Source: Endomicrobium sp. (GTDB lineage Bacteria > Elusimicrobiota > Endomicrobiia > Endomicrobiales > Endomicrobiaceae). From it: a stretch of 58,941 bases of DNA. The notes below the pieces were generated by a model that worked only from the letters and a program-made list of their open reading frames with translations, was not told the origin of the DNA and did no database searches. The stretch spans positions 1-58,941 of the forward strand of contig JAITOB010000023.1 in NCBI GenBank assembly GCA_031290155.1. Direction: 5' to 3'. Shown in pieces: positions 19,294 to 58,941 of this stretch (positions within the stretch are counted from its first letter, which is position 1; the number at the start of each line of letters is the position of its first letter). The position numbers and the translations under genes were made by a program.

Positions 19294-21048
19294 ATGACAA
19301 TATCTGAAGATATAATTGAAAGAATAAGGCTTTCAAACGATATAGAATCTATTGTAAAAGAATATTTGCCGGATTTAAAAAGGACAGGTCGTAATTGGAA
19401 AAGCTGTTGTCCGTTTCATAATGAGAAAACACCTTCTTTTATAGTAAGTCCTGAAAAAGGAATTTTTAGATGTTTCGGGTGCAATATTGCCGGTGATGTT
19501 TTTAAATTTGTTATGCTGATAGACAATATGTCGTGGATTGAAGCTGTAAAAAAACTTGCAAAAAAAGCAAATATAGAAATCCAAGAAACAAAACAAGATA
19601 TAATAAAAACGTCCGAAAAATCTAAGCTGTTTGACGTTTTAGAAGGTTCGGCTACATTTTATCATAGATGCCTGCTTGAAAGTGCGAGCGCTAAAAAAGC
19701 GAGAGAATATTTTGAGAAACGCGGTATTAATCGCGAAACAGTAAACAAATTTAAGCTTGGATTTGCTCCTAAAGGACAACTTCTTCAGTCAGCTTTAAAA
19801 AAAGGATGCGGCAGTGAGGATCTTTTAAAGGCAGGTTTAATAAAAAAAACAGACAAGGGAACATTGTTTGAATATATGTCGGAAAGAATAGTTTTTCCGA
19901 TTTTTGACGTTCAAGGCAGAGTTGTGGCGTTTGGGGGAAGATCCATTACAAATCAAGATCCAAAATATTTAAATACCCCTGAAACTATTACTTATTCAAA
20001 GTCGTCAAATCTTTACGGATTGTTTCAAACTTTGCCTGAACTCCGTAAGGAGAGAAAAATAATTATTCTTGAAGGGTATATGGATGTCGTTATTCCGCAG
20101 CAATCTGGGATAGTGGGTGCGGTTGCCACTCTTGGAACTGCATTTACTCAAAATCATGCGAAATTAGTTTCAAGATATTCCGAAATTGTTATATTGCTTT
20201 TTGATTCTGATAATGCCGGTAGGGCTGCAACACAAAAGGCTCTTGAGATTTTGCTTGAAAACGGTATAGAATGTAAGGTATCCGCTCTGCCTGAAGGTAT
20301 TGATGCCGATGAGTATACAATACAATATGGGAAAGAAAATTTTTTAAAACTTATTGAAGACAGCTCTAAAAATGCAATAGATTTTATGATTGCAAGAGTA
20401 TATGATGGCTCGTTTTCAGGGAGTAAAAATAATTCTCCTGAAATAAAAGCAAAAGCTGTGCTGAATCTTTTAGATTTTGTAGCAAGAAGTTCTAATTCTA
20501 TAGTTCAAAGAGAATGTATAAAAAATATTGCGCAGCATATAAATGTTAATGAAGAAGATGTCTGGAAAGAGTTTAAAAAAAAGCAGCAGCTGAAGTTTAA
20601 ACGAGTTTTGCCGGATGCTAAAAGTTCAGCTTCTTTTTTTATAAATAAAAAAATTTCAATGTCTTTGGAAGAGAATCTTTTAAATCTCATTTTGGGCGAT
20701 AGAAATTATATTGAAAAAATTGATTCTGATTATTTCGAAGATTCAAGGTGTAAAAAGGTTTTTGAACTTGTAGCTTTGGGTTTAAGCGATGTCGAGATAT
20801 TAAATACATTATCCAATGAAGATAAAAGTTGGTTTTCCGAACTTGTATTGAATGCGGTAGAATACAGCAATATTGAAGAAGCTTTTATTATTATTTTAAA
20901 GGATATTGAATCATGCGGACTTAAAAATAAAAGACAAAAGCTTGAAAAAGAAATTCTTTTGATGAGTGAAGGAAAAAAAGAAAAGGACGAAAAAATTCTA
21001 GATGAATATAAAAAATTGACAGCTCTTTTAAAGGGCTCGAGGAAATGA
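19294..21048 (+). CDS. dnaG: DNA primase DnaG
   Basis: The protein has 584 residues and makes RNA primers at the replication fork. The N-terminal CHC2 zinc-binding domain is intact (CCPFH...CFGC: Cys39, His42, Cys60, Cys63). The catalytic TOPRIM domain follows with [11 protein letters not shown], the EGYMDVV glutamate and the LLFDSDNAG acidic pair. The C-terminal third is divergent and Lys/Glu-rich, as is common for the DnaB-interacting domain. The ATG at 19294 comes two bases after the NIF3 stop, with an AGAAGAT-type weak ribosome site inside the NIF3 end. It is one base ahead of rpoD, so tight coupling is likely. Confidence 0.97.
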
Positions 21049-34919: not shown

Positions 34920-35903
34920 ATGCAACTGTTAAAACTTATCCATTTATTTAAAAAGCAAACTGTTTTGGTTATCGGCGATGCTATGGTGGATCAATTTGTA
35001 TGGGGAAAAGTAAAAAGAATATCGCCTGAAGCGCCTGTTCCTGTAATAGAAATTACAAAGGAAACGGCAGCTCTTGGCGGAGCAGCAAACGTTGCAAATA
35101 ATATAACAGATTTAGGCGGTAAAACATTTATTATAAGCGTAATAGGCAAGGATACTGCCGGCAACTCTGTAATTAAAATGTTTTCAGAAAAAAAAATAAA
35201 TTCGGATTATTTGATTTGTGATTCTAACAGACCTACAATTGTAAAAACTAGAATTATAGCCATAAGTCAGCAGGTTGTAAGAGTAGATAAAGAAATAAAA
35301 GGATTTTTTGAGCATAGCATTGAATCTAGAATTATAGAAAATATAGAAAAACTTGCTCCTCTAGTAAATGCTGTAATAATTTCCGATTACGGTAAAGGAG
35401 TTATAACTCCTAAAGTTTTGAAAAAAATAATATATCAGGCAAAAAAATATCATATACCTGTTACAGTAGATCCTAAAATAGAACATTTTAAAAAATATAA
35501 GAAAGTTACATTAATGACGCCAAATGAAACAGAAGCACTTGAAGGAATGAATGTAAAAAGTATAAAAATAGATGAGGATATAGCCGCGCTTGGCAGAAAA
35601 ATACTTAAAACTTTAAATTCAGATTCAGTCCTTATTACGCGCGGTGAAAAAGGAATGACACTTATTCAGTCTAACAATAGAATTGTAAATATACCCACAA
35701 GAGCAAAAGAAGTTTATGACGTTACAGGCGCGGGAGATACTGTTATTTCGGCAATAACCCTGGCGTTAGCTGCAAAAGCAGATTTCGTAAGCGCGGCGGA
35801 AATCGCCAATTTTGCTGCAGGTATAGTTGTTGGCAAACTTGGAACTACTACGACAAATTTACAAGAACTTGAAAAAACAATAAAAGATTTCTATAAAAAA
35901 TGA
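34920..35903 (+). CDS. hldA: D-glycero-beta-D-manno-heptose-7-phosphate kinase (kinase domain only)
   Basis: The 327-residue protein is a PfkB-type sugar kinase: VIGDAMVDQFVWGKVKRISPEA at the N-terminus, ALGGAANVANNI for the substrate lid, and VYDVTGAGDTV with the catalytic aspartate near the end. In enterobacteria this domain is fused to an adenylyltransferase (HldE); here the gene stops after the kinase, so HldC must be encoded separately. Its stop overlaps the kdsB start (ATGA), indicating translational coupling. Confidence 0.93.
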   Translation: MQLLKLIHLFKKQTVLVIGDAMVDQFVWGKVKRISPEAPVPVIEITKETAALGGAANVANNITDLGGKTFIISVIGKDTAGNSVIKMFSEKKINSDYLICDSNRPTIVKTRIIAISQQVVRVDKEIKGFFEHSIESRIIENIEKLAPLVNAVIISDYGKGVITPKVLKKIIYQAKKYHIPVTVDPKIEHFKKYKKVTLMTPNETEALEGMNVKSIKIDEDIAALGRKILKTLNSDSVLITRGEKGMTLIQSNNRIVNIPTRAKEVYDVTGAGDTVISAITLALAAKADFVSAAEIANFAAGIVVGKLGTTTTNLQELEKTIKDFYKK

Positions 35904-36726: not shown

Positions 36727-37551
36727 ATGGAAAATAAACAGATAAAAATTAACAAAAATATTATTCTTGCTAATGATAAGCCTTTTGTTGTCATAGCAGG
36801 TCCATGCGTAATAGAAAGTGAAAAACAGGCTTTGACTTTAGCTGAAAACTTAAAAAAACTAACTTCTAAATTAAAAATACCTTTTATTTTTAAAGCTTCT
36901 TACGATAAAGCAAATCGTTCGTCAAGTTTTTCTTACAGAGGACCGGGTATTGAAGAAGGACTAAAAATTCTTGCCAAAGTAAAAAAAGAATTGGATTTAA
37001 GCGTTATTACAGATATTCATAACGAAACTCAAGCCACAAAAGCCGCTCAAGTTATAGATTTTCTGCAGGTTCCTGCATTTTTATCCAGACAAACAGATTT
37101 AATTAAAGCTTGTGCTATTACAGGCAAACCCGTCAATATAAAAAAAGGGCAGTTTTTAGCTCCCGAGGATATGTTTAACGTTATTAAAAAAGCTGAGAGT
37201 TTTGGCAGTAAGAATTTGTCTGTTACTGAAAGAGGAGTTTCTTTTGGGTATCATAATCTTATTGTGGATTTCAGGGGTTTAGAAATAATGAAACAGATGG
37301 GATATCCGGTAATTTTTGATGCCACGCATAGCGTTCAGCTTCCAGGCGGTTGCGGAACGTTCAGCGGCGGCAACAGAGAATTTGTTCTGCCTCTTTCAAA
37401 GGCGGCTGCAGCAGTAGGAATTGCGGCATTATTTCTTGAAGTTCATGAGAATCCGGATAAAGCTCTTTCAGATGGAGCAAACAGTATTGACTTAAAATGT
37501 TTTGAACAGTTGCTTAAATATATAAAGGTTATAGACGAGGCGGTAAAATGA
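36727..37551 (+). CDS. kdsA: 3-deoxy-8-phosphooctulonate synthase (KDO8P synthase)
   Basis: KdsA condenses phosphoenolpyruvate with arabinose-5-phosphate. It has 274 residues with IAGPCVIESE, IFKASYDKANRSS, TDIHNETQA, FLSRQTDL, NIKKGQFLAPEDM, ERGVSFGYHNL, FDATHSVQLPGG and LEVHENPDKALSDGANSI, all family-typical. A gap of about 100 bases separates it from kdsB, so it may have its own promoter, though none stands out. Its stop overlaps the start of the next small gene. Confidence 0.97.
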   Translation: MENKQIKINKNIILANDKPFVVIAGPCVIESEKQALTLAENLKKLTSKLKIPFIFKASYDKANRSSSFSYRGPGIEEGLKILAKVKKELDLSVITDIHNETQATKAAQVIDFLQVPAFLSRQTDLIKACAITGKPVNIKKGQFLAPEDMFNVIKKAESFGSKNLSVTERGVSFGYHNLIVDFRGLEIMKQMGYPVIFDATHSVQLPGGCGTFSGGNREFVLPLSKAAAAVGIAALFLEVHENPDKALSDGANSIDLKCFEQLLKYIKVIDEAVK

Positions 37552-47030: not shown

Positions 47031-48771
47031 ATGCTTAACAGGAAAAAATATTATTCTTAAAGGCGTTGCGGTATCGCCTGGAATTGCCATAGGTAAAGTT
47101 TTTCTTTTTGAAAATGATGATTACTGTATTATTTATAGGGAAATACCTAAAAATGCAATAGAAGCCGAAAAAAAAACGTTTAAATGATGCTATAGAAAAA
47201 ACTAAAGCTCAGCTTAAGATAATTTATAGTTAAATTAATGGTGTACTTGGTAAAAATTACGCTCAAATCGCAGACGTACATATCTTAATATTAGATGATC
47301 CGGTAATGAAAAGAGAGGTCGATAAACTTATAGAGAGCGGCGTTAACTCAGAATATGCTCTTTATAAGTTGTAGATAAAATTATGCGCTCTTTTGAAACA
47401 ATAGAGGACGATTACTTTAGAGAAAGAAGACTTGATGTTCAAGACGTAGTAAAAAAATTATAGGCAATTTAATTGATAAGCAAAATAAAACTATTACAGT
47501 GAGTTTAGATGAAGATTCAATCATTGTTGCGCATGCTTTAAGTCCCGAGGATACCGTTTATATGAGAGGGAAATTGTTTAAAGGTTTTGCCACTGATGTT
47601 GGTGGAAAAACTTCGCATACAGCTATTGTTGCACAGGGGCTTGAAATTCCGGCTGTTGTAGGTTTAAGGGTAATATCGTCGCAGGCAAGAACGGGAAATA
47701 TTATCGTTATTGACGGCAATAAAGGCGAGATTATCTTAAATCCAAATTTAGAAATCATAGTGAGATATAAAAAAGAATACGATATACAGTTTATAAAGAG
47801 AAAATATCTTGAAAAATTAAACGATTTGCCGTCCGAAACAACCGATCATTATAAAGTTTTAATTTATGCAAATATAGATCATCCGGATGAGGTGCAGTCA
47901 GTTCTAAAAAATGGTGCGGACGGCATAGATCTTTACAGAACGGAATGTATATATTAATCGTAACGGTATGCCTTCTGAAAAAGAACATTTTGATAAATAT
48001 TTTGAAATTGTGGAAAAAATATCGCCGCATCCTACAGTTATAAGGACGGTAGATTTAGGCGGCGATAAACTTACAAAAATGGGTTTTTTTAATTTAGGAT
48101 ATGAAGAAAATCCTTTCTTAGGGTTAAGATCTATAAGACTTTGTTTGAAGCATCCTAATATTTTTATAGATCAGTTGAGAAGTATTTTAAAAGTTTCGGC
48201 TTTCGGAAAAGTTAAACTTATGTATTCTATGATATCCGGGCTTAGCGAACTTCGAGAAGCTAATAATATTCTTGGAAAAGTTAAACAGGATTTAAGAACA
48301 GCGCATATAGCCTTTGATGAAAATCTGGAAGTAGGTACTATGATAGAAGTGCTATCTGTCGCAATGATAATAGATGCTATAGCAAAAGAAGTTGATTTTG
48401 TTTCAATAGGAACCAATGATTTGATACAATATGCTCTCGCTATTGACAGAGTAAATGAAAATGTAGCAAGCCTGTACGATCCTCTGCATCCTGCAATTTT
48501 AAGATATATTAAAATGATTATAGATGAAAGTCATAAAGCCGGAATAAAAGTCAGTATGTGCGGGGAAATGGCTGGAAACCCGTCTTATACGCTTATCCTT
48601 TTGGGGCTTGGACTTGATGAATTCAGCGTCTCGTTCAAACAGATGTCAGAGATTAAAAAAGTTATAAGAGGCGTTTCTTTTACAAATGCCAAAAATATTG
48701 CAGAAGAAGTTGTAAAATGTGTCGACAGAGATGAAATTTCAAAAATTATGGGCACTATTCAAATACAATAA
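47031..48771 (+). pseudogene. ptsI: PTS enzyme I (phosphoenolpyruvate-protein phosphotransferase), decayed
   Basis: The gene opens at ATG 47031 in the wrong phase for GVAVSPGIAIGKVFLFEND. After several breaks a long piece (47499-47957) has the phosphohistidine block VGGKTSHTAIVAQGLEIPAV; a second (47968-48771) has IRTVDLGGDKL, FLGLRSIRLCL, FVSIGTNDLIQYALAIDRVN and VSMCGEMAGNPSYTLIL, the PEP-binding domain, with a stop at 48769-48771. Text between about IFIDQLRSILKVS and KVKLMYSMIS looks shortened. EI starts every PTS phosphorelay; no sugar PTS can run on this gene. Confidence 0.92.
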
Positions 48772-56990: not shown

Positions 56991-58535
56991 ATGTTGTATA
57001 AACAAAAAATTCAAAATATTGCACTTTGCATAATAACAGGTTTATTAACAATATGCGTATTCCCAAAATAAATCTGTTTTCTTTAGTTTGGGTGTCGCTT
57101 ATCCCCTCTCATTTTTGTAATAATTAAACCCGGATTAAAAACTTCTTTCTTTTACGGATTTCTTGCGGGGGGGGGGTTGTTTTTAACGCAGCAAGACTGT
57201 ACTGGATTGTGTATACGCTTAAGTTTAAACCGATTCGTAATAATCAGCAGTCAATTACTGCTGCTGTGATTTTATGGGCGTATCTTGCATTATATTGGGG
57301 TCTTTGGAGTTTATGTTTAAATTTTTTACAAAGAACTCTTGACAATATACTTCAAAGTACTCTGTATTCAAATATTTTTATAATTCTTTTAGGCCCATGT
57401 CTATGGTTTTACTTGAGTATATAAGGACATATTTTCTTACCGGTTTCCCATGGATGCTTATAGGATATTCACAGTTTGAGTTTACTGAAAATTATACAAA
57501 TATCTGAATTTACTGGCGTATATGGTGTTTCTTTCATTATAATATTTTGCAATTTATGTTTTTTTTGGATTTCAACTATAAAAGGAAATAAATATTTATA
57601 TACGGCTTTAATTCTCATTATTTCATTTTCAATGTTTGGATTATTAACAAGCGGAAAATTTAGATTTTTACGGCGATCAAGAGTTTACTGCGGCAATTGT
57701 GCAGCCTAATATTGATCAATACAAAAAATGGGATCAATTTTATAGAGGCGAAATTTTGTTTAATCTTGAAAAACATACTTTTGAAATTTCTAAAATAAAA
57801 GCAGATTTAGTTTTATGGCCGGAAACTGTCTTACAGGTTATATACCGGGAGATACCCAGCTTTACAGCAAAGCAAAACGCATAATAAATACAGCGGGCGG
57901 GTTTAATATTATAGGTTCTTTATATAATGATGAGAATAATAAATTGTTTAATGTTGTTTTAGCTTTTGAAAGCAACGGCGGTTATACGGGAGCGCATAAG
58001 AAAAAATCATCTTATTCCTTTTGGAGAATATATTCCCTATAGAGCTTTATTTTCAAAATTTTTGATATTTTAAACCAAATGGGTGATTTTGAAAAAGGAC
58101 AGGATACAGATATTTTTAACAATGGTAAAATATATGCAGGTTCAACAATATGCTCAGAAAATTTTTTTCCCTGATATTTCAAGAAAATTTGTTCTTTCAG
58201 GAGCAAAAGTTCTTACGAATCATACAAATGACGCATGGTTTTTTGATACGGCCGCTCCATACCAGCATTTTATGATGAATATATTCAGGGCTGTTGAAAA
58301 TCGTAAAACTGTAATAATTTCTGCAAATTCCGGGATTTCTGGAATTATTGACGCTTCCGGTTTAATTGTTGAAAGAACACCGTCATCTAAAAATGCTTTG
58401 GTTAGAGGTAAATTTCTGCAGAATGATTTTAAGACTTTTTATGTAAAATATGGGGATTTATTTGTAAAACTATGCTCGGTAGCGCTTATAATTTTAATAT
58501 TATTAATGCTGTATATCAGGTTCCGCGGAAAGTAA
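56991..58535 (+). pseudogene. lnt: Apolipoprotein N-acyltransferase, frameshifted
   Basis: From ATG 56991 the text reads IALCIITGLLTICVFPKINL, then SFFYGFLAG into a 10-G run, and resumes in another frame as VFNAARLYWIVYTLKFKP, YIRTYFLTGFPWMLIGYSQ, EFTGVYGVSFIII, the nitrilase domain AAIVQPNIDQYKKWDQ, DLVLWPETV, GAHKKxHLIPFGEYIPYRAL, ICSENFFPDISR and LTNHTNDAWFFDTAAPYQHF. The Glu (WPE), Lys and Cys (ICSE) catalytic residues are still readable, but at least six frame changes break the gene. Lnt adds the third acyl chain to lipoproteins. Its loss would leave them diacylated unless another enzyme exists. Confidence 0.92.
57167..57176 (+). repeat. Run of ten G at a frameshift in dead lnt
   Basis: The frame before the run reads FYGFLAG and the frame after it VFNAARLYWIVY is one phase off. 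Eight or eleven G would restore one frame across this point. Confidence 0.85.
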
Positions 58536-58635
58536 ATATATCCTATAATCAAGTTATAATAAAAATTTAAGAGCGTTGAAAACGTATCTATGAGAAGTAA
58601 ATTTATTATACTAATATAAAAAAGAGAGGGTTAAA

Positions 58636-58941
58636 ATGCTTGAGCAACAAAAAAACAGGATAGACACTTTAAGGAGGTCTCTTTAATATTGATTCAAAAG
58701 CGGATCAAATCAAAGAGCTTGAATCTAAAATATTAAATCCGGATTTCTGGAATGATAAAAATAAAGCTAAGAAAATTATGGTAGAACTTGACAATTTAAA
58801 TAATACATATAAGTTATGGCACAATATGAGCGTACGCGTTAAAGATTTAATAGATTTAAAAGAACTTGCCGCAATAGAAAAAGATGAGAATCTTTTAAAA
58901 GACGTTGAAGACGGCAGCAGAGAGCTTGAAAAAGAATTGTC
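58636..58941 (+). CDS. prfB: Peptide chain release factor 2, with programmed +1 frameshift (3' end outside window)
   Basis: From ATG 58636, behind AGAGAGGG, the zero frame codes MLEQQKNRIDTLRRSL and stops at TAA 58684-58686. Skipping one base (T58684) continues as NIDSKADQIKELESKILNPD, then FWNDKNKAKK and onward to the window end. This is the N-terminal helical domain of RF2; LRRSL-NIDSK aligns with LRGYL-DYDAK of Escherichia coli exactly at that gene's known recoding point. RF2 reads UAA and UGA and releases peptides. Gene expression would be autoregulated by frameshifting. The GGQ and tripeptide-reading parts lie beyond the window. An ordinary pseudogene lesion is less likely because the whole stimulator is present. 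Confidence 0.9.
58672..58686 (+). promoter_or_regulatory. prfB +1 frameshift signal: AGGAGG-TCT-CTT-TAA
   Basis: An internal Shine-Dalgarno AGGAGG (58672-58677) lies three bases before the slippery CTT (58681-58683) followed by the stop. Spacing and slippery codon are the canonical ones for RF2. The stop, however, is TAA where the canonical site has TGA followed by C. Confidence 0.85.

Follow-up and report, generated by a model that had tools for sequence, protein, structure and literature searches.

The prfB gene for release factor 2 (RF2) at the end of the stretch analyzed here has a TAA stop where the canonical RF2 frameshift switch has TGA. This raises the question of whether such a site is a working switch, a switch that senses something other than RF2 alone, or a switch on its way to being lost. 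The stretch, called the window below, is 58,941 nucleotides long and is the whole of contig C4 of genome G000, a 1.11-Mb assembly in 36 contigs from a termite-gut protist symbiont of the genus Endomicrobiellum (Elusimicrobiota).

The window carries a prfB recoding cassette with a TAA stop

A direct read of positions 58672-58687 gives AGGAGG-TCT-CTT-TAA-T, with RF2 going on in the +1 frame (NIDSKADQIKELE; Table 1), as the initial annotation had it. The gene has the early in-frame stop with its remainder in the +1 frame, and the Shine-Dalgarno (SD)-like hexamer, 3-nt spacer, and CUU U (AGGAGG TCT CTTT) expected of this family; the site is a prfB recoding cassette carrying TAA. It departs from the canonical form in that the stop is not one read by RF2 only (TAA, in a genome with an intact prfA) and in that the next base is T and not C. 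A UGA stop defines the canonical form of the prfB switch, not the family, and C after the recoding stop is common and not defining. UAA is readable by RF2 and is an accepted minority state at this site (PMC12421855). We consider it very probable that this is a classical RF2 autoregulatory +1 programmed frameshift site with the minority stop UAA, and we infer from its sequence that frameshifting occurs and is regulated here.

Table 1. Features of the window discussed in the text
Feature	Position	Strand	Observation
dnaG	19294-21048		ends in TGA
hldA	34920-35903		ends in TGA
kdsA	36727-37551		ends in TGA
ptsI (PTS enzyme I)	47499-47957 and 47968-48771		split by in-frame TAA
lnt (apolipoprotein N-acyltransferase), directly upstream of prfB	57011..58535	+	broken across three frames; not part of the switch
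GAGAGGG, putative ribosome-binding site of the short 0-frame leader ORF	58624..58630	+	from sequence, 5 nt before ATG 58636
0-frame ORF1 of prfB, 16 codons (MLEQQKNRIDTLRRSL)	58636..58683	+	relatives have homologous leader ORFs in this position
AGGAGG, internal SD-like stimulator	58672..58677	+	direct read
TCT, 3-nt spacer	58678..58680	+	spacing of the canonical cassette (PMC12421855)
CUU U, slippery sequence (CTT 58681-58683)	58681..58684	+	P-site tRNA-Leu would re-pair from CUU to UUU
TAA, in-frame stop (canonical: TGA)	58684..58686	+	with T at 58687, tetranucleotide TAAT
+1 frame ORF2 of prfB (RF2)	58685..58941	+	runs off the contig, resumes on G000:C24

The contig end falls inside prfB, and the initial annotation had suggested reading on beyond it for an intact RF2. 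We found that contig C24 starts with an exact copy of the last 119 nt of the window (an assembly overlap) and that the rest of RF2 follows there, giving a joined product of 361 amino acids in which the SPF and GGQ motifs are both present. TIGR00020 matches the part of RF2 in the window and, above the cut-off, the part on C24 (453 bits). A pseudogene prfB was ruled out.

Other genes of this genome are eroding. In lnt, TIGR00546 matches fall on separate ORFs and there are stops in every frame, and ptsI is likely a pseudogene.

RF1 and RF2 are both intact and RF2 is required

We found no second RF2 in G000, which has one prfB only; the other homologue, on C25, is prfA, encoding release factor 1 (RF1) with P-E-T and GGQ motifs, so loss of RF1 was ruled out. 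Since both genes are intact, RF1 and RF2 should each read UAA, in line with the earlier premise that RF1 could also terminate at this site. TGA ends 84 of 256 sampled ORFs (33%) in genomes with TAA at the prfB site and 90 of 330 (27%) in those with TGA, no clear difference in these small samples of partial loci, so the stop at the site does not visibly track stop codon usage. Because TGA stops are common and prfB is single, RF2 is required and must be made through this site; the annotation had argued the need for RF2 from dnaG, hldA, and kdsA, which do end in TGA, as do about a third of genes.

The initial annotation also proposed that RF1 is weak or scarce, in which case UAA would effectively be read by RF2 alone and the switch would work exactly as with UGA. 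In favor of this, Prince et al. argued that RF2 is perhaps the main reader of UAA in most bacteria (PMC12421855), and position 246 of RF2 (E. coli numbering) is Ala or Ser here, compared to Thr in K-12. However, all seven TAA genomes of the genus have an intact prfA that encodes the P-x-T and GGQ motifs, and TAG still ends approximately 15% of genes. These observations leave a weak or scarce RF1 unsupported, and we regard this reading as rather unlikely.

A tRNA-Leu(GAG) gene was found in G000. Two relatives, G013 and G043, have an intact 16S anti-SD CACCTCCTTT, and in G034, another TAA genome, the 16S locus contains the complementary string GGAGGTGAT; the 3' end of the 16S gene of G000 itself is missing from the assembly, and the anti-SD evidence is that of its relatives. 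The sole 16S piece in G000 (L309, G000:C15:1-900) is a contig-end fragment that looks chimeric, and a second 16S-like piece seems to follow it reversed.

We also observed a degraded GGQ-domain remnant with an in-frame TAA elsewhere in G000 (L004, G000:C10:46267-46401), which is probably a broken ArfB-like rescue factor; an open short version of this gene is seen in several family members.

TAA recurs within the genus at an otherwise conserved site

The initial annotation had called for a comparison of the prfB stop among relatives, and we read the start of prfB in 77 genomes of the family. CTTTAAT was found in seven of them, all in the genus of the window: G000, G004 ("Ca. Endomicrobiellum agilis"), G005 (basalitermitum), G006 (calonymphae), G011 (glyptotermitis), G025, and G034. 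Nearly all other family members have CTTTGA. The frame is fused in a few, among them G027 of the same genus (L070/L179) and G053 and G056 of sister genera (also L072 and L073). In G053 and G056 the fused junction gives Leu-Asn-Ile, which is what the +1 codons of a TAA site would encode.

Among the 37 site-bearing genomes of the genus, the middle base of the stop is A in 7, scattered on the tree, and G in 30, while CTTT, the last A of the stop, and a purine-rich hexamer are kept in all 37. Since TAA is present in 7 of these 37 genomes, it is not an isolated sequencing error, and an assembly error at the contig end was ruled out because TAA is found in seven separate assemblies and the site lies >250 nt from the end. 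T follows the recoding stop in 34 of the 37 sites, including all seven TAA sites; the tetranucleotide is TGAT in most of the Endomicrobiaceae, compared to TGAC in most other Elusimicrobiota matches, and U at this position is a family trait.

Over 341 Elusimicrobiota genomes, the pattern AGGRGGNNYCTTTAAYNNNGA gave 6 matches, five of which are prfB sites of this genus and the sixth of which lies outside prfB in an unrelated gene (glycosidase-like by eye). The TGA pattern was found in 57 of the same 341 genomes, and a reversed-pattern control gave scattered single matches only.

In most pairs from TAA lineages the dN/dS of RF2 is about 0.07-0.17, with 0.27 in the fast pair G025/G024, values by which RF2 in these lineages is under purifying selection. 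Because CTTT is invariant and RF2 is under such selection, the shift must still work and should not be decaying.

The stop codon has changed repeatedly

On an RF2 protein tree from which the site residue was left out, TAA needs five changes and a single TAA clade is rejected (p-AU 4e-85); a prfB+secA+prfA tree, built without a wrong secA ORF of G040, also needs five. A two-rate model was better than a no-reversal model (lnL -14.3 versus -19.6, in a small sample). The ancestor of G005, G006, G011, and G014 is reconstructed as TAA (0.98), so the TGA of G014 is likely a reversal, although two separate TAA gains may explain the same pattern. At TAA sites the +1 codon is AAT in place of GAT, which makes RF2 residue 17 Asn instead of Asp. 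Overall, the stop change in this genus behaves like a tolerated G-to-A transition, coming and going.

We saw no stronger SD compensating in the seven TAA genomes (AGGGGG in 3, AGGAGG in 2, AAGGGG in 1, and AGAAGG in 1). Five of the seven TAA sites have a spacer codon that pairs more weakly (TTY or TAT), which is suggestive but confounded by one clade. Separately, 21 of 42 Endomicrobiellum genomes lacked a recognizable rpoB, even some assembled into 2-4 contigs (e.g., G005, G006, and G011), so this gene could not serve as a tree marker; the region around rpoBC was probably missed systematically in assembly or binning.

These results bear on a further proposal of the initial annotation, namely, that the site is drifting toward loss in a decaying genome, which we took to mean lost regulation in a decaying gene or degenerate switch of a reduced symbiont genome. 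The broken lnt next door and ptsI, the fused frame of G027, and a weaker SD in some reduced genomes all fit this proposal. On the other hand, CTTT and the final stop base are invariant, RF2 is under purifying selection, G014 has likely reverted to TGA, and a TAA clade persists in Magnetococcales genomes of 3.7-4.6 Mb. Nor is TAA limited to the most AT-rich genomes, as GC3 in G004 and G034 is among the highest in the genus, which also leaves extreme AT bias unsupported as its cause. We thus find drift toward loss unsupported and improbable.

Predicted operation of a UAAU switch

In the classical mechanism that we favor, ribosomes would translate the 16-codon leader until AGGAGG pairs with the 16S anti-SD, straining the ribosome with CUU occupying the P site and UAA the A site. 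Slow release would allow tRNA-Leu to slip from CUU to UUU so that RF2 is made in the +1 frame, and fast release would let go a 16-residue peptide. That ribosomes make RF2 mainly by initiating internally, or by reinitiating after termination, at the shift site is highly improbable: in G000 an in-frame AUU (the second +1 codon) follows a strong AGGAGG at a distance of 10 nt, and that codon is ATT in five of the seven TAA sites, but it varies among sites (GTT, ATA, TTA, and others), AUU works poorly as a start codon, and such a start would leave CTTT without a reason for conservation.

With UAA, release by RF1 plus RF2 would compete with the +1 slippage, and the frameshift switch should report total UAA-release capacity. 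It should set RF2 lower than UGA would, with the negative feedback on RF2 retained. A feedback that sums RF1 and RF2, one of the options in the initial annotation, is plausible. Which factor closes the loop depends on the stop codon at the prfB site, and whichever factor dominates UAA release in the symbiont would decide between RF2 sensing and RF1+RF2 sensing. We tentatively propose, as one possibility, that the Endomicrobiellum switch has repeatedly turned from an RF2-only sensor (UGA) into an RF1+RF2 sensor at UAAU, with selection sometimes restoring UGA.

The stop context normally selected at prfB sites is the weak UGAC. UAAU is its opposite, since the case has been made that no bacterial stop signal is stronger (PMC5289835). 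RF2 output is therefore expected to be low, or the kinetics of release to be altered, and shifting at UAAU could be very low. This prediction from stop context is the one surprising element of the site. Cassettes with UAG, a stop read by RF1 only, still shift in E. coli (PMC5009743; PMC3521657), so the UAA site should function. The genus offers at least five UGA/UAA changes with a fixed slip site, and these are matched natural pairs for testing RF2-specific sensing (for example, G004 versus G043, G005/G006/G011 versus G014, and G000 versus G015/G032).

TAA sites outside the genus and comparison with known systems

The TAA variant of the prfB switch is already known and involves no new mechanism, because it has been published at 1.4% of motifs and in FSDB. 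In the survey by Prince, Lin, and Feaga (mBio, 2025), 1.4% of 8,164 prfB motifs, from several phyla, had TAA, 98.6% had UGA, and none had TAG, and the authors described TAA as not broadly fixed in clades (PMC12421855); CUU UAA C is an FSDB entry (PMC3500957). The rarity implied by the initial annotation was accordingly overstated.

We scanned a collection of 84,980 species genomes with a pattern that limited the base after the stop to C or T and obtained 49 matches, 23 of which have a real RF2 frame behind them. Four of these 23 are Endomicrobiellum sites with TAAT and all others are TAAC, within a pattern that took C or T only. The TAAC sites are in Magnetococcales (seven), Bacteroidota, Gammaproteobacteria (a Legionella species, Contendobacter, and the symbionts Serratia symbiotica of Cinara cedri and Thiodictyon intracellulare), a Comamonadaceae, Enterococcus timonensis, and one further bacterium. 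The seven Magnetococcales species group in a single clade (SH-aLRT 99), share 84-96% identity in RF2, and have full-size genomes, and prfA was intact in the three that were checked. Our additions to the published picture are the UAAU context, the repeated switching inside one symbiont genus, and a Magnetococcales clade that keeps TAA.

Compared to the UGA prfB switch (E. coli and approximately 64% of surveyed bacteria), the Endomicrobiellum site shares the SD-like hexamer, 3-nt spacer, CUU U, short leader, and +1 RF2 frame and differs in its UAA stop and in the U after it, where C is near-universal. It has the same stop substitution and cassette as the other TAA prfB motifs (PMC12421855; PMC3500957), but in Endomicrobiellum the sites read TAAT and are polyphyletic inside a single genus. 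The Mimivirus/Megavirus class I release factor gene, with CUU UAG C or CUU UAA C (PMC3521657), likewise has a non-UGA stop in an RF2-like shift motif, but it is an unrelated gene that encodes a eukaryotic-type factor and has a separate readthrough stop.
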